Virus record (IMG/VR): IMGVR_UViG_3300009073_000030
Location: 1-32,472 of that record
Source of the DNA: a virus
DNA length: 32,472 nt
Reading direction: 5' to 3' (one strand)
The position numbers were made by a program, and so were the translations under genes. Shown piece by piece: positions 2,866 through 19,017 of the stretch; position 1 is the stretch's first letter; each line of letters opens with the position of its first letter. Under the pieces are notes generated by a model. It was not told where the DNA came from, made no database searches, and saw only the letters and a list, made by a program, of their open reading frames with translations.

Positions 2866-3185
2866 TCCCCTGCCCCGTTCTTTTCCTGATATGCGGCCAA
2901 CATCATCGCGAACAGCTTGCCATTCGGCACTTCCAGCTCGTCGCGGATCGCGATGAAAGCATCGCTGTCTTCCTCGCGAATCTTGAGATTGAGCTGCACA
3001 GGATAGCGCACGGCGGGTTTACGCTTCGCCCTGCCCTTCACGGCCCCTTCCCTACTCGTGAAGCCCTGCGCCTCGGCTGTGGCGTCCTGCACGGCCTGTG
3101 CGCCCTTGTCAGGCCGCTTCGCCGCTGTACCGGGCTTGATGTCGTCCAGATCGTCGATGACGATCGCTGCGCGCTTCTTGGCCAT
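2862..3185 (-). CDS. Ribbon-helix-helix ParB-like centromere-binding protein
   Basis: 107-aa protein with a basic, disordered N-terminal half (residues 1-58, rich in Lys/Arg/Ala). The C-terminal part fits a ribbon-helix-helix fold: strand PVQLNLKI, helix EEDSDAFIAIRDEL, turn, helix NGKLFAMMLAAYQ. This layout is that of small centromere-binding proteins paired with type Ib ParA ATPases (ParG, omega, RHH ParB), in which the mobile basic tail stimulates the ATPase. Its start overlaps the parA stop by one base, the expected gene order. Such proteins bind arrays of short repeats and repress their own operon. The 10-bp phased GATA arrays, especially the one directly upstream of parA, are the obvious candidate targets. 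Family assignment is from pattern, not alignment. Confidence 0.7.
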   Translation of the reverse strand: MAKKRAAIVIDDLDDIKPGTAAKRPDKGAQAVQDATAEAQGFTSREGAVKGRAKRKPAVRYPVQLNLKIREEDSDAFIAIRDELEVPNGKLFAMMLAAYQEKNGAGE

Positions 3186-3859
3186 CAGGCACCCTCCCCT
3201 ATCATTTTCAGTTTCTCGATCATCTCGGCAGCAAATGCGGCCGCATTTTCCGTTGCGGCGGCGATTCCGCTGACTTCACTTTTTGGCAAGTCTCGGACGC
3301 CTCCACCATAAGCGAACAATGCGCGATAGGCTGCGCGATCGACGATCTTGGTATCGAAGATCGGGATGCCCTGCCCTTCCAACTGGCCGCGAACGGCGCG
3401 CTCGTCGCGCGTGACGATCGCGGCATTCGCCCTAGTGAACAGCGCAGAATACGGTATCGGACGACGGACGCTGCGTTCCTGCATCTTGATCATCTTGATC
3501 GCCTCTGCCGCGCGCAGCGCGTCCACATGGCTGCCATTCATCGGCACCACCACGAAATCGCTGTTCGCGATCGCGGTGGCCATCATCAAGTTCTTGGACC
3601 CTTCCAGATCCACGATGACAAACTTCACCCGATCAACTTCCTCGAAGATTACATCGAGCATCGTATCCTCGGTGACATCGCCTCGAACAGTGATGCGCTC
3701 CACGTCATCGAGGCGGGACCATTCGACAAGCACCTTGTTCGGGTCTGCATCGATAATAGCGACATCCGCACCGCGATGCGCCAGTTCGGTTGCCAAGATC
3801 AGGGCGCTTGTTGATTTGCCGACGCCGCCCTTGGGCGAGGCAAAGGATATGATGGGCAT
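3185..3859 (-). CDS. parA: ParA-family partition ATPase (type Ib)
   Basis: 224-aa Walker-type ATPase predicted to move plasmid copies apart over the nucleoid. The deviant Walker A PKGGVGKST is at residues 9-17, the A' box IIDADP at 35-40, and Walker B FVIVDLEG at 80-87. There is no N-terminal HTH domain, so this is the short type Ib class that works with a ribbon-helix-helix partner, encoded immediately downstream. The ATG at 3859 is preferred over an in-frame TTG at 3892: it has AAGGA about 8 nt upstream, while the TTG falls inside the repeat array. The promoter region is filled by phased site C, which implies autorepression. There is no chromosomal-type ParB and no RepA/RepB pair, although the replicon uses a RepC-type initiator. 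Confidence 0.9.
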   Translation of the reverse strand: MPIISFASPKGGVGKSTSALILATELAHRGADVAIIDADPNKVLVEWSRLDDVERITVRGDVTEDTMLDVIFEEVDRVKFVIVDLEGSKNLMMATAIANSDFVVVPMNGSHVDALRAAEAIKMIKMQERSVRRPIPYSALFTRANAAIVTRDERAVRGQLEGQGIPIFDTKIVDRAAYRALFAYGGGVRDLPKSEVSGIAAATENAAAFAAEMIEKLKMIGEGA

Positions 3860-5328: not shown

Positions 5329-5496
5329 GTTGTCAAAAGATCGATTGAGGTTGGCAAAGGACGCCGCGCGGTTGTCACCAGATGGTTTGAAGTTGTCACC
5401 AGATGGTTTGAAGTTGTCACCAGATGGTTTGAAGTTGTCGGGTGGCAGCCAAGAGTTGTCTCGCGATAGCTTTTGGATGTCAGATGATGGACAGAG
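5329..5496. repeat. Tandem array of eight 21-bp iterons
   Basis: Units start at 5329, 5350, 5371, 5392, 5413, 5434, 5455 and 5476, exactly 21 bp apart. Each starts GTTGTC (GTTGGC in unit 2, GATGTC in unit 8), and most have GAT at unit positions 11-13. Units 3, 4 and 5 are identical. 21 bp is two helical turns. The array fills the gene-free stretch 5305-5635 together with phased site D. Its position upstream of the membrane protein gene and about 600 bp from repC suits either an operator or a replication/incompatibility iteron set. All frames through it are open only because 21 is a multiple of 3, so I do not call a gene here. Confidence 0.85.
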
Positions 5497-5504
5497 ATCA
5501 TCTC

Positions 5505-5586
5505 GGGATATCTTGTGATGATCTGTGACAATCCGAAGATATCCCCGTCATGTCGCAACATATCCTGTGATATCTCGGGATATCCT
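5505..5586. repeat. Phased GATA array, site D
   Basis: GATATC/CATATCC cores start at 5507, 5538, 5559, 5569 and 5579, with degenerate copies near 5517, 5528 and 5549, so the 10-bp phase is kept across about 80 bp. It directly follows the 21-bp iterons and precedes the 3' end of the ASCH gene (5636). It is probably bound by the same protein as site C at parA. Confidence 0.6.
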
Positions 5587-5635
5587 GCATTCATCACGGC
5601 ACGGCATGGTGTTGTCGGAAGGGCAGGGCGTGACA

Positions 5636-14074: not shown

Positions 14075-14575
14075 ATGGCTATGTCCTACCAATCCGTGAC
14101 GCTCTGCGGCCATATGGGGCAAGACCCGGAAATCAAGAGCTTCCAGAACGGCGGCAAGATTGCCAACTTGTCGATCGCGACCTCGCGGCGCTGGAAAGAC
14201 AAGCAAACGGGTGATGTCCGAGAGAAAACCGAGTGGCACCGGGTGTCCGTCCGAAATGATGCGCTGGTCGCCTTGCTCGCCGATTACACCCGCAAGGGGT
14301 CAGCGATCTTGGTAGTTGGCGAGTTGGAAACCCGCAAATGGCAAGATCAAAGCGGTAATGACCGCTACACCACCGAAATCGTTGTGGCGGGCTACAATGG
14401 CGTTGTGCGATTGCTCGATAGTCGCGAGCGTACAGGTCAAACCCAGAACCGGGATCGTGGTGGTTCATCGGGGGGTGGGTATGACAGCTCTCCCGGTGGC
14501 AATGATGGCGTATCGTCAGGTGGGGCAGGGCAGGGTAGTCGCTCGCTCGATATCGACGATGAGATTCCGTTCTGA
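14075..14575 (+). CDS. ssb: Single-stranded DNA-binding protein
   Basis: 166-aa SSB. The N-terminal OB fold (about residues 1-112) contains SVTLCGHMGQDPEIKSF, KIANLSIATSRRW and TEWHRVSVRND. A Gly/Ser-rich disordered linker (about 115-155) leads to the acidic tip DDEIPF, which recruits partner proteins. It coats single strands during phage replication and starts the replication cluster with primase and helicase. The start is ATG 14075 after GAGGGGG; a second ATG lies two codons later. The next gene begins in its stop codon (TGATG). Confidence 0.95.
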   Translation: MAMSYQSVTLCGHMGQDPEIKSFQNGGKIANLSIATSRRWKDKQTGDVREKTEWHRVSVRNDALVALLADYTRKGSAILVVGELETRKWQDQSGNDRYTTEIVVAGYNGVVRLLDSRERTGQTQNRDRGGSSGGGYDSSPGGNDGVSSGGAGQGSRSLDIDDEIPF

Positions 14576-14937
14576 TGAATCGTATCGAGCCTCGGGACAG
14601 ACGATTTTTGCATCGTTCAACATCATTCTTCCTGTCGCTTGCAGGGGTTCCCCTGGACAACTACGCGCAGGGCGTTGGGGTCCGGCTTTTCGAGTCGGAT
14701 TTTGCAAGTCTTCCCGAGTGGCATGTGGATCGATCTGAACAGCTCGAACGACTGGAAGACGATGCGCGCGGTGCGCTTGAGGGGCCGTATAGCGGCATCG
14801 CCCTGCCTATGCTGGGCATCCTCGCGCGGATGCGTTTCAGGGAGTGGCAAGACCCTCATTTCATCGCCGATATCGTGATGCTTGCCCATAAACTGAAAGT
14901 GGAGCATGGGCGGCTTTATGCCGAGGGTGTCCAGTGA
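14575..14937 (+). CDS. Small replication-cluster protein of unknown function
   Basis: 120-aa soluble protein that I do not recognise. The N-terminus is basic (RIEPRDRRFLHRSTSFFLSLAG), the middle acidic (RSEQLERLEDDARGAL), and the C-terminus helical. It is wedged between ssb (1-bp overlap) and primase (4-bp overlap), so it is co-translated with replication proteins and may be an accessory factor. Confidence 0.6.
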   Translation: MNRIEPRDRRFLHRSTSFFLSLAGVPLDNYAQGVGVRLFESDFASLPEWHVDRSEQLERLEDDARGALEGPYSGIALPMLGILARMRFREWQDPHFIADIVMLAHKLKVEHGRLYAEGVQ

Positions 14938-16202
14938 TCCGCTTCGACATCGAGGAGGTGCGCTCCCGCGTGTCGGTGGAGCAGATCGCGGGCCGCGACG
15001 TCTCATGGGACATGCGCAAATCAATCCCGTCGCGTGGCGATTATTGGGCCTGTTGTCCTTTTCACAGCGAGGCGACCCCCTCTTTTCATGTCATCGAGCC
15101 CGTTGTTGGTGAGGGCCGGTTCTACTGTTTCGGGTGCGGGGTTGGCGGGTCTGTTTTCGATTACGTCATGGAGCGCGACGGCTGTTCTTTTCGCGAGGCG
15201 CTGGAACTGGTCGCCAAGGCGGGCGGGATCGCACCGGGATCGAATGATGTGCCCCGCCTGTCGGATGCAGACCGCAAGGCTTTGGAAGACGAGGGTGGGG
15301 CTGCGTATTTTCGCAGGATAGACAAGGATAGCCGGGTCTATTCATCTGACAGGATAAGGCGAAGCGCTTGGCGCAAAGGGTGGTTGCGCGCGCAAGAGGC
15401 GGATCGGGTCAAGCGGTTCATTCGCACCGGAATCGAAATATGGGTGGATGCAGACCCTGATGATCCGTTGATCGCGACGTATATCGCCGCGCGGATCGGT
15501 ATCGAGAGACAGCAAGCCTTGTGGCATCTGTTCGAGGGTCCACCGCCAACGCTGCGCCTTGCGCCTGACCTTCCCTATCGCGACCTGAAGACGGGCAAGG
15601 TAATCGAGCGCGCCCCTGCGCTCGTCGGTCTGGTCACTCGGGATGGCCTGATCGCTGGAATACATCGCACCTGGCTGGAAAAAGACGGATCGTGGCGGCG
15701 GCGTGATCTGTCAAAGCGAATGCTCGGGGATACATACGCTGGGGCCATTACATTCGGGCCGCCTGCCGACTCTATGATCGTGGGAGAAGGGATCGAAAGC
15801 ACCCTGGCCGAACTGGGGCGCTTGGCGCTGGCCGGTCACGCGCTCGATGTCACGAATCCATCGGCCAAAACCGGCTGGACGGCTCATTGCGCCCTGACGC
15901 GCGGGGCCATGGTCGGGCGGGGCGACCCCAGATTCGCAGATCGCGGGGCAAATTCGCCTTCTCCCGTGCCGGATTGGCAGGGTGCCGGGTGGGCAGCGCC
16001 GCTCCAGTGCAGCGAACTTATCCTGCTGGGCGACGGCGATTCCAAGAATCCGGCGACAGCGCGGGGAAACCTCGCGCGAGGGCAGCGCCGACACAGCGTC
16101 AGGTCAGACGGTCGGCCTCGATCCTGCCTCGTTGATTGGGCGGGCGGAGACCCGGCTCTCGGGTTGGATCATGCGGATATCGCGTTGAGGCCCCATGTCT
16201 GA
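14934..16202 (+). CDS. CHC2 zinc-finger/Toprim DNA primase
   Basis: 422-aa primase. The zinc ribbon (about residues 40-70) is C-CPFH...FYCFGCGVGG, ligands C41, H44, C65 and C68. The Toprim domain has Glu285 in VGEGIES and the DxD pair D367/D369 in LLGDGDS. It synthesises RNA primers for phage replication. The start is GTG at 14934, overlapping the previous stop (GTGA); the downstream helicase gene starts 8 bp inside it. The C-terminal tail after DGDS (RGNLARGQRRHS...) is short but ends in the recognisable GLDHADIAL, so it is probably intact rather than frameshifted. Confidence 0.85.
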   Translation: MIRFDIEEVRSRVSVEQIAGRDVSWDMRKSIPSRGDYWACCPFHSEATPSFHVIEPVVGEGRFYCFGCGVGGSVFDYVMERDGCSFREALELVAKAGGIAPGSNDVPRLSDADRKALEDEGGAAYFRRIDKDSRVYSSDRIRRSAWRKGWLRAQEADRVKRFIRTGIEIWVDADPDDPLIATYIAARIGIERQQALWHLFEGPPPTLRLAPDLPYRDLKTGKVIERAPALVGLVTRDGLIAGIHRTWLEKDGSWRRRDLSKRMLGDTYAGAITFGPPADSMIVGEGIESTLAELGRLALAGHALDVTNPSAKTGWTAHCALTRGAMVGRGDPRFADRGANSPSPVPDWQGAGWAAPLQCSELILLGDGDSKNPATARGNLARGQRRHSVRSDGRPRSCLVDWAGGDPALGLDHADIALRPHV

Positions 16203-17841
16203 ATCCTCTCACCCATATGCGAGCGCTGGCCCAGCCGGAACGGATGCCTCCGATCCGTTGACGCGTTCCTCTTTGCCGCGCGATGACATGGGAAACGGGC
16301 GGCGGCTGATGGCGGTGCATGGTCATGACATCGCGCATATCGATAAATCGGGCTTCATCGTCTGGACCGGAGAGATATGGGATGCCGATCACGGCGATAA
16401 ACGGGCCTTGCAGCTCGCCATGCGCCTGTCGGAGATCGTCACCGAAGAGATGGAGGTCCAGTCGAGGCAGCCGGTCGAAAAATGGCTGCTCGATGCCACT
16501 ATGGCGTCCGATCAGATCGACGAGAAAAAGGCCACGGCAAAAATCAAGGCAGCGCGGCGGGGCGCTTGGCGGTCCTATATCGCACGCTGCGGTCGGTTGC
16601 CTGATATCGAGCGGGCGCTCAAGGTGCTGCGGACCTATGCCATGGGCAGCAAGGGCGACTTCGACAACAACACCCTGCGCCTGACCCTAGCAAACGGGAC
16701 GCTCGATCTGTCGAAGCTGCCCTCGGCTGCCGAGGTTGATGTCACGCCGGAAGAGATCGGCGCGGCCTTCGTTGAGGAATTCTTTCGCGACGATATGAGC
16801 ACGCATCAATCGCCGGTTCGGTTCGATCCCCGCGCGGATTGCCCGAAATGGATCGCGTTCATCGAACTGATCATGCCGTCCAGGCCAATGCAGCAATACA
16901 TGCAGATGGTTTTTGGGTACTGCCTTTCAGGATCGGTTTCAGAGCAGTGCATCTTTCTGTTTCAGGGCGAGGGCAAGAACGGCAAATCCGTTCTCCTGAC
17001 CATCATGTCCCGCATCTTGGGCGATTACTCCACCGTCACGCCCATTGAAACATTCTTGCGCGACAAGAATCGATCTGGGGCCAGCGCCTCGCCCGATGTG
17101 GCCCGCCTTGACGGACGGCGGTTGGTGCGCGCATCGGAGCCGCGCAAGGGCGACGTGCTCGATGACGGTCGGTTGAAGGAATTTTCGGGTGGCGAGCTGA
17201 TGGCCACGCGCGAACTGTACGGCAAGTATTACGAATTTCAGCCTCGGGCAAAGCTGTTCCTGTCGTTCAACCGCGTGCCGTCGATCTATTCGGATGACGA
17301 CGGGATGTGGCGGCGTATCCACCTGATCCCGTTTTCAGTGCAGATCCCTGAATCCATGCGCCGCGCCTTCGATGTTGTCGTGGCGGAGCTGATGGACGAA
17401 GCGCCCGGCATCCTCAACTGGATGATCGAGGGGTGGCGAGCCTATGCGGCTGCTGGCCGTATCGTTCGGCCCGAAGAGGTCGAGATCGCCAGTCAGGACT
17501 TGCGAGAGACCCTCGACACCATCGGCCAGTTCCTTTCCGAGTGCTGCATCAAGGGCAACGAGGAAAAGGCCCAGTTCGCACAGGTCTATGTCGTCTATGA
17601 AAAATGGGCGACTCGGCTGGGCGACAAGCCGGTCAGCCGCAAGGCGTTGGCGATGGCCTTGGAGAACAAGGGTTACAAGAAAGATCGCGGTGGCGGCAAC
17701 AACTCGGCCTATCGGTCGGGCCTGCGCCTTCGGTATCGCGACGAAATCGGGCCGGATATCGGCACCGAAATGTATGGCGAGTGGCTCCGCGCTGCATCTG
17801 CCCCAGTCGATAAGCCGATTGAGGGCGAAGATGTTTTCTAA
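16195..17841 (+). CDS. P4-family/D5-like replicative helicase
   Basis: 548-aa superfamily 3 helicase of the phage/plasmid primase P4 type. The N-terminal part (about 30-200) matches the D5_N region; Walker A QGEGKNGKS is at 257-265. Downstream are the ASPDVARLDGRRLVRASEP segment, sensor-1-like LSFNRVPSI and the MWRRIHLIPF motif. The C-terminal D5-type wing (about 440-530) ends in Ser/Arg-rich sequence. It unwinds DNA at the phage origin together with the adjacent primase. In P4 the related alpha protein also recognises origin iterons, so the iterons just downstream (18035-18359) are candidate targets. It overlaps primase by 8 bp. Confidence 0.9.
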   Translation: MSESSHPYASAGPAGTDASDPLTRSSLPRDDMGNGRRLMAVHGHDIAHIDKSGFIVWTGEIWDADHGDKRALQLAMRLSEIVTEEMEVQSRQPVEKWLLDATMASDQIDEKKATAKIKAARRGAWRSYIARCGRLPDIERALKVLRTYAMGSKGDFDNNTLRLTLANGTLDLSKLPSAAEVDVTPEEIGAAFVEEFFRDDMSTHQSPVRFDPRADCPKWIAFIELIMPSRPMQQYMQMVFGYCLSGSVSEQCIFLFQGEGKNGKSVLLTIMSRILGDYSTVTPIETFLRDKNRSGASASPDVARLDGRRLVRASEPRKGDVLDDGRLKEFSGGELMATRELYGKYYEFQPRAKLFLSFNRVPSIYSDDDGMWRRIHLIPFSVQIPESMRRAFDVVVAELMDEAPGILNWMIEGWRAYAAAGRIVRPEEVEIASQDLRETLDTIGQFLSECCIKGNEEKAQFAQVYVVYEKWATRLGDKPVSRKALAMALENKGYKKDRGGGNNSAYRSGLRLRYRDEIGPDIGTEMYGEWLRAASAPVDKPIEGEDVF

Positions 17842-18157
17842 TTACGCCCGAAAAATCAGAATGCGACGGCTATATGAGCGGTGGCAGCGCGAGCAATTTG
17901 TGCGGATGCGCGGCTATTCCTGTTCGCCAACCTTTAAGATCACCCCGCGCGATCCGCGCGGATGCGGTCGATTTTTTTGCCGAGGTCCTCCCTCTCTATC
18001 CTTTCCAAGATTGAGCTTTTCACAGGATCGATCCATCGGGACGATCCTGCTTTTACCCCCGGATGATCGTCCCGAAATCGGGATGATCGGGACGATGTTC
18101 TTCCGTTTGCGCGAGGCGCGGCACGGCTCCGGTTTTTGTGACCCTGACGAAAAGTGA
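17831..18157 (+). CDS. Possible small basic protein overlapping the helicase end
   Basis: 108-codon frame starting 11 bp inside the helicase gene after GAGGG. The first 45 residues (MFSNYARKIRMRRLYERWQ...) look protein-like and basic. The remainder runs through the 11-bp iteron region and reads poorly (RGPPSLSFPRLSFS...). It may be a short real gene whose 3' part is low-constraint, or only a coupled open frame. If it is not a gene, 17842-18252 is a 411-bp non-coding stretch holding mainly iterons. Confidence 0.3.
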   Translation: MFSNYARKIRMRRLYERWQREQFVRMRGYSCSPTFKITPRDPRGCGRFFCRGPPSLSFPRLSFSQDRSIGTILLLPPDDRPEIGMIGTMFFRLREARHGSGFCDPDEK

Positions 18158-18359
18158 CCAAGCCCCGAAATCGGGACGATAGACCCCCAAATCGGGACGA
18201 TATCGGGACGATGCCGGGACGATAAAGCCAGCGAAACTGGGGCATCGGGACGATGGGACGATTTTCTGTGACTAACGCGCGTGAGTCTAATTCTTCTAAT
18301 CTCTTTATGCGAAGAGATAGGAAATATCGTCCCGATCATCCCGAAGGGATAGGGACGAT
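18035..18359. repeat. Array of about 13 iterons ATCGGGACGAT in both orientations
   Basis: Direct copies start at 18035, 18077 (GATGAT ending), 18086, 18170, 18191, 18202, 18213 (GCCGGGACGAT), 18244, 18252 (GATGGGACGAT) and 18349 (ATAGGGACGAT). Inverted copies lie at 18066, 18326 and 18335. Units 18191/18202/18213 are head-to-tail at exactly 11 bp. Pairs of opposite copies form strong hairpins, for example 18066-18087 and 18326-18359. The array spans the helicase-NusG junction and enters the 5' part of the NusG-like frame. It is a candidate lytic origin for the primase-helicase, or an operator/antitermination site. Confidence 0.8.
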
Positions 18360-19017
18360 ACCGGATGATGATCTTCACTGGTATGTCGGGCTGGTCGCCT
18401 CGAACCCGGCCATTGGTGGCGAGGCCAGCATTCTGCGGCGATATCTGCCGGAAGGGTCTAGTGGTGCATTGCGCGAAGAGCGCGCGGCCTCGATCATCGC
18501 CCATGCCGGTCGGGATGAGGACGTTCAGGTCCGGGTGCCGATCTATCGCCGCGATCCGAGGGTGCGTTCGCCGGTCGGGCGCAAGCGGATCAGCGAGCGG
18601 CTGGTAATCTTCAGCGGATATCTGTTCATGGGCGTCCCATCGGGTTGCGATCCTCGTGCCCATGGGTTCGCGCCGGATGTGCGCAGCGTTCCTGCATTGA
18701 CCGGGTTTCTTAGTGAGCTCTATGGCACGAGAAGACTGCCGAAACGGCTTTCGAGTTCGGTCATAACGCGGCTATGCTTCGAGGCCGATGTTGGGACATT
18801 CGATGAAACCCGCGAATCGCGGCGGGTTCGGGCCAGCAGGCTGAAAGCCGGGGCGACGGTCTCTATTGCGGCAGCCCATCCTTTTCTTGCTGGCGAGATC
18901 AGCGAAATCGAAAAAATTGATGGGGAGGGGAGGGTGCATCTCACCATCGGTCGGGTGCGGGTTTCCCTCGCTCCGGAGGAGGTTTCGATGGTCGATGGGG
19001 AGGGTGCGGGCCGATAG
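18253..19017 (+). CDS. NusG-family transcription elongation factor (specialised paralogue)
   Basis: Up to 254 aa. An NGN-type domain starts at WYVGLVASNP (about residue 43), with the family strand RLVIFSGYLFMGVP and VRSVPALTGFL. A C-terminal KOW-like part (about 200-250) is LKAGATVSIAAAHPFLAGEISEIE...VHLTIGRVRVSLAPEEV, matching NusG's GDxVRIxxGPFxGxxGxV pattern. NusG paralogues (RfaH, LoaP, phage-borne types) bind RNA polymerase and suppress termination in selected operons. It stands alone directly upstream of the packaging and morphogenesis genes, so late-operon antitermination is the natural inference. The start is uncertain: ATG 18253 lies within an iteron, ATG 18307 has no clear ribosome site. 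A near-palindrome GACTAACGC/GCGTGAGTC (18270-18287) lies between the two. Confidence 0.7.
   Translation: MGRFSVTNARESNSSNLFMRRDRKYRPDHPEGIGTIPDDDLHWYVGLVASNPAIGGEASILRRYLPEGSSGALREERAASIIAHAGRDEDVQVRVPIYRRDPRVRSPVGRKRISERLVIFSGYLFMGVPSGCDPRAHGFAPDVRSVPALTGFLSELYGTRRLPKRLSSSVITRLCFEADVGTFDETRESRRVRASRLKAGATVSIAAAHPFLAGEISEIEKIDGEGRVHLTIGRVRVSLAPEEVSMVDGEGAGR

Follow-up and report, generated by a model that had tools for sequence, protein, structure and literature searches.

A probable lytic replication origin downstream of the D5/P4-family helicase gene of a phage-plasmid

The array of short iterons that follows the D5/P4-family helicase gene very probably serves the phage as its own (lytic) origin of replication, with the helicase encoded just upstream as the enzyme that uses it; we give this reading a probability of about 0.87. 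By comparison with other elements it is well supported, namely by the helicase-adjacent position, the opposed iteron sets, an AT-rich segment of low stability, the phasing of the copies, and a layout shared with other phages, including Streptococcus phage Sfi21. The lytic origin proposed in the initial annotation of this DNA is thus upheld. The likely lytic origin of a RepC-carrying phage-plasmid is placed within ~330 bp, and its probable initiator is named.

Layout of the iteron array

The stretch of DNA analysed (the window) is a whole IMG/VR virus record of 32,472 bases. Its plus strand carries genes for SSB, a CHC2 primase, the D5/P4-family helicase, a NusG-like protein, the small and large terminase subunits, and the portal protein, with a tape-measure-like ORF at the end of the record. 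The minus strand carries genes for a RepC-type replication protein and a ParA-type ATPase. Such a gene content is that of a phage-plasmid equipped with two systems of replication, and the RepC-type replicon is separate from the array, as had been proposed. A DNA similarity search of the window against plasmids gave no match. The features of the region are listed below, with coordinates in the window.

14075-14575, plus strand: SSB (single-strand DNA-binding protein) gene (Pfam SSB, 6.4e-30)
14934-16202, plus strand: CHC2 zinc-finger primase gene, separate from the helicase (Pfam Zn_ribbon_DnaG, 7.8e-20; DUF7146, 2.1e-13)
16195-17841, plus strand: D5/SF3 P4-family helicase, proposed initiator (TIGR01613, D5_N, DUF5906; AlphaFold; Foldseek)
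17482-17739, plus strand: C-terminal helical/winged-helix-like region of the helicase, proposed iteron-binding domain (Pox_D5, model helices)
17954-17977, plus strand: terminator-like hairpin and T-run 3' of the helicase gene (hairpin scan)
18035-18045, plus strand: iteron 1, ATCGGGACGAT
18066-18076, minus strand: iteron 2, inverted, one mismatch, not conserved in the relative L005
18077-18087, plus strand: iteron 3, ATCGGGATGAT
18086-18096, plus strand: iteron 4, exact
18170-18180, plus strand: iteron 5, exact
18191-18201, plus strand: iteron 6, exact
18202-18212, plus strand: iteron 7, exact
18213-18223, plus strand: iteron 8, GCCGGGACGAT, exact core
18244-18254, plus strand: iteron 9, exact; its final two bases are the first two of the NusG-like ATG
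18255-18262, plus strand: iteron 10, core GGGACGAT alone
18263-18325, no strand: AT-rich centre, 63 bp, proposed DNA-unwinding element (AT content, stability)
18326-18336, minus strand: iteron 11, inverted, exact
18335-18345, minus strand: iteron 12, inverted, core with one mismatch
18349-18359, plus strand: iteron 13, one mismatch
18253-19017, plus strand: NusG-like gene, 5' end overlapping the proposed origin (PHROG 6386 antiterminator, 1.8e-4)

The 8-bp core GGGACGAT is present in 11 exact copies at 18038-18359 and in one copy elsewhere in the 32 kb (24770), against a maximum of 2 cores per 330 bp in 60 dinucleotide shuffles of the whole window. All seven exact copies of ATCGGGACGAT in the window lie inside the array. 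With one mismatch allowed, 13 iterons are found in 18035-18359 (10 on the plus strand and 3 on the minus strand), in agreement with the dense array of about 13 copies in both orientations initially described. The first iteron is located ~194 bp past the helicase stop (17841), with no convincing gene between. The terminator-like hairpin lies in this interval, and L005 keeps most of its stem and T-run; the region holds two such hairpins, compared with 1.0 expected from shuffles.

The left set comprises ten copies (18035-18262, one of them inverted), and the right set (18326-18359) consists of two inverted copies and one forward copy. The iterons read toward the AT-rich centre, and the inverted copies stand beyond it. 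The AT content of the centre is 0.62, compared with 0.39 for the record, and nearest-neighbour energies place the 60-mer at 18281-18340 within the least stable 0.24% of the window. The AT-rich centre, the switch of orientation and the 10.5-bp phasing (see below) are additions to what was originally observed. In the head-to-tail trio reported there, the exact 11-bp spacing holds (starts at 18191, 18202 and 18213); the third copy is exact in the core only.

The array enters the NusG-like gene, as had been noted: the ATG at 18253 overlaps the copy at 18244-18254. As this is the first ATG of the ORF, the AT-rich centre and the right-hand copies fall inside the N-terminal codons. The alignment of these codons with those of L005 is free of gaps, which suggests that they are translated. 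The L005 protein itself matches the PHROG 6386 antiterminator profile (4.6e-6). The AT-rich centre also contains an inverted repeat, TCTCTTtatgcgAAGAGA (18300-18318), with an in-frame ATG in the loop and a z of -3.4 as RNA; its L005 counterpart is weaker (z -0.4). The GC skew shows no switch at 18 kb, a point against an origin there, though most genes in that part share one direction.

L005 is the nearest relative of the window, with 81% identity for the helicase and 57% for the NusG-like protein. The spacings of the forward copies (42-9-84-21-11-11-31) are identical in the two, and the sequence between the copies is partly changed. These distances are in phase at 10.5 bp, with a mean cosine of 0.86, and when positions were moved by up to 5 bp the optimised phase value was reached in 3 of 20,000 trials. 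The target of the iterons is likely to be duplex DNA.

The helicase and the proposed initiation

The helicase scores 224.8 bits against primase_Cterm TIGR01613 (curated cutoff 108.7), which places it in the P4-family/D5 (SF3) group; the earlier label "P4-type" was right at the family level. The AlphaFold model (pLDDT 88.8) has a D5-type fold, and its top Foldseek matches are hexameric/dodecameric AsfvPrimPol (E 4.3e-25, TMq 0.66). The sequence also matches D5 primases and 7ola. In the C-terminal region, residues 440-491 match Pox_D5 with 21.2 bits, slightly below the cutoff of 21.4, and the model has helices at 442-450, 461-474 and 482-491.

By homology and anatomy, the array would work like the origins of SaPI Rep, Cch2 and the PICIs. 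The C-terminal domain of the helicase would bind the GGGACGAT iterons, largely on one face of the helix, at multiples of ~10.5 bp, and one hexamer could form on each of the two opposed sets, the pair melting the AT-rich segment that lies between them. Moving outward, each hexamer would then encircle one strand; priming and coating of the opened DNA would fall to the CHC2 primase and SSB, whose genes lie just upstream. As for timing, plasmid maintenance of the element would depend on the RepC/ParA replicon, with the array origin amplifying it on induction.

Related arrays and the survey of D5-helicase loci

In L042, an unrelated phage, GGGACGAT copies are followed by a very AT-rich stretch and then by inverted copies, directly 3' of a D5 helicase gene whose product is 22% identical to that of the window over 313 residues (partial length). 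No NusG-like gene is found in L042; the array therefore tracks the helicase, not the NusG-like gene, and an assignment of the array to NusG was given up on the strength of this case. With the NusG-like protein as the search key, viral contigs returned L005 alone and phages none; its AlphaFold model, from a two-sequence alignment, is uninformative (pLDDT 39). A helicase-pair search of genome contigs gave zero confirmed relatives.

The DNA-pattern scan of viral contigs yielded clear arrays, beyond that of the window, in L005 and L042. When viral and genome contigs were scanned for tandem CGGGACGAT, most matches had too few copies or were regularly spaced repeats, some apparently in coding sequence, and arrays of the window's kind were limited to L005, L042 and L163. 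The last, a Myxococcales MAG contig, has a two-sided CGGGACGAT array (3017-3299) with a ~100-bp spacer, upstream of a CHC2-type primase ORF inside which the contig stops. No D5 helicase was found in that genome, which is a counterpoint to the origin reading. Long regular CGGGACGAT repeats with 18-, 21- and 19-bp spacing also occur in bacterial genome contigs (L221:3453-3767, L182:4-180 and L243:5463-5604, respectively), in a layout unrelated to the origin arrays.

Similar arrays with other words are found as well. The next-closest helicase (L065, 40%) is followed by a CCGAACGAT array with a low-GC centre and inverted copies (L065:5048-5345), ~460-770 bp past the helicase and beyond one small ORF. 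Among cultured D5-helicase phages, such arrays are present in RcapNL, Pan4, R18.1, R4C, RcRhea and RR1-A (those of R4C and RcRhea were judged by eye).

For the survey, 80 D5-helicase loci from viral contigs and those found earlier were reduced to 71 usable non-redundant loci, and a locus was scored as having an array if a single 8-mer recurred four times or more within the 540 bp that follow the helicase stop. Owing to the shared ancestry of the loci, the pooled numbers given here do not amount to independent trials. Arrays are located directly 3' of the helicase in 54 of the 71 loci, compared with 0/71 for the in-gene control and 1/66 for the upstream control; the 8-mer count exceeds all 60 dinucleotide shuffles in 52/71. 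The G-rich strand reads toward the centre (polarity >0.7) in 39 of 55 arrays, and a polarity <0.3 is observed in one, L118, for which the strand assignment of the word is ambiguous. The centre, usually 66-100 bp in size, is AT-richer than its own locus in all 53 measurable cases. When same-strand distances are pooled, they fall into phase at 10.7 bp with a value of 0.52; jittered positions gave 0.14 at most. In the remaining 17 of the 71 loci, which count against the origin reading, the DNA directly 3' of the helicase lacks a strong array; some have one at a greater distance (~+460 in L065 and ~1.8 kb downstream in RR1-A), and in others none was found.

Similarity of the iteron words follows similarity of the helicase C-terminal regions, with the ATPase core allowed for (partial Mantel r 0.14, p 0.01), a weak signal but of the sign expected if the C-terminal region reads the iterons. 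On balance, we lean toward a view in which each lineage has its own word (GGGACGAT, GGGAGGAT, GCGAGGGT, GTGACGGA and others) co-diverging with the helicase C-terminal domain, and in which the position of the window's melting segment inside the NusG-like gene could couple expression to origin firing. If this is true, origin specificity could be read from sequence, and satellites would share or borrow the origin type of phages. A recognition code from helicase to iteron becomes testable, and for uncultured D5-helicase phages the rule would be to seek a repeated word 3' of the helicase that inverts across an AT-rich centre.

Comparison with known origins and alternative explanations

Judged from sequence, the window array has the known layout of SaPI/PICI/Sfi21-type origins. 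PICI origins lie 3' of the initiator gene and have two iteron sets around an AT-rich region, and one of them was shown to support replication (PMC6092414). The window array is likewise immediately 3' of its proposed initiator helicase gene, and its two iteron sets enclose an AT-rich region, although the right set is small (2-3 copies versus ~10 on the left), which counts against the origin. Unlike in SaPI/PICI, the primase and the helicase are separate genes, the iteron is GGGACGAT, and the AT-rich centre lies inside the next ORF. A PICI is a helper-dependent satellite, and the element, which itself encodes a large terminase and a portal protein, does not belong to that class. In SaPI Rep and in Cch2, the D5-type helicase of SCCmec, it is the C-terminal domain that recognises the repeats, which lie downstream of the respective gene (PMC7581432), as proposed here; the Cch2 case differs in that it has only three AAGTG iterons, is not a phage, and its origin is putative.

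An annotated parallel in layout, which served as a positive control, is offered by Sfi21, where a D5 helicase gene (profile E 4.7e-31; DUF5906, Pox_D5) has at its 3' end a feature described as "origin of replication, 302 bp non-coding region, phage inhibitory sequence"; this feature contains oppositely oriented repeats around an AT run. In multicopy, the Sfi21 origin is reported to inhibit the phage (PMC6356513). The Sfi21 feature shares both traits with the window, but the iteron is of AGTAAC type, the host belongs to another phylum, and the origin is annotated as non-coding. Phage P4 alpha has the P4-family helicase domain (TIGR01613) and binds repeats as the initiator; there, a single protein combines primase and helicase, and ori is separated from crr.

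The PICI layout was stated to be shared by no other known bacterial replicon (PMC6092414). From our survey, it looks general in D5-helicase phages, with lineage-specific iterons. This goes beyond that statement and is possibly new, but it may be known already; no paper stating such a rule was found in the literature searched, which took in few subscription papers.

The strongest rival is an operator array, in which a phage regulator would act on the repeats and control the NusG-like/late operon starting inside the array. The overlap with the NusG-like gene start and the position after the terminator-like hairpin are consistent with this. Furthermore, a PHROG 9306 gene (function unassigned) occupies the slot of the NusG-like gene, directly after the array, in 9 of 10 tested Gram-negative D5 phages (L063, L069, L070, L072, L076, L078, L084, L093, L117 and L127; the exception is L063). 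It may be a late regulator, so that a regulated late operon could begin there. However, no sigma-70-like promoter was found in 17700-18500 and no core copy near the divergent intergenic region of the repressor-like gene, and arrays are present without a NusG-like gene in L042 and with other downstream genes in Gram-positive D5 phages. With the corresponding Sfi21 region annotated as an origin, we consider the operator unlikely, while a secondary regulatory role could coexist with the origin. A packaging site, where the small terminase subunit would bind the repeats (cosB/pac-like), is suggested by the terminase genes ~1-1.6 kb beyond the array (TerS 19292, TerL 19920) and by the RcapNL array near an annotated cohesive end. 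It is very unlikely, since the position of the arrays is fixed to the helicase; the gene that follows them is usually no terminase, the Sfi21 equivalent has none adjacent, and the AT-rich centre would be left unexplained.

The hairpins at 18066-18087 and 18326-18359, initially called strong, do fold, but their strength is modest compared with shuffles (z -1.7 and -2.3, respectively). A role at the transcript level is conceivable, such as in antitermination or in translation of the NusG-like gene, and the L005 equivalent of the second also folds (z -2.6). The RNA role raised in the initial annotation is nevertheless highly improbable: in L005, 3 of the 10 pairs of the first hairpin are broken with no compensatory pair, and the inner stem of the second is lost. 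The covariance sought among homologues was not seen, in a comparison of low power because L005 is the one alignable relative. There is also no Rfam family match, and phasing at 10.5 bp belongs to the DNA duplex. Sites of the ops type that recruit the NusG-like protein would fit the adjacent gene, but arrays occur without it in L042 and most D5 phages, the gene being found only in the window and L005, which makes this explanation scarcely credible.

Repeats are also observed in the part of the window devoted to the plasmid replicon. Between the ParA and RepC genes, GTTGTCACCAGATGGTTTGAA is present in three perfect 21-bp tandem copies (5371-5439), followed by several GATATC-type repeats (5490-5590); together they are candidates for the iterons or the partition site of this replicon. 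A gene for a D12-class adenine-specific DNA methyltransferase is located at 1674-2507.
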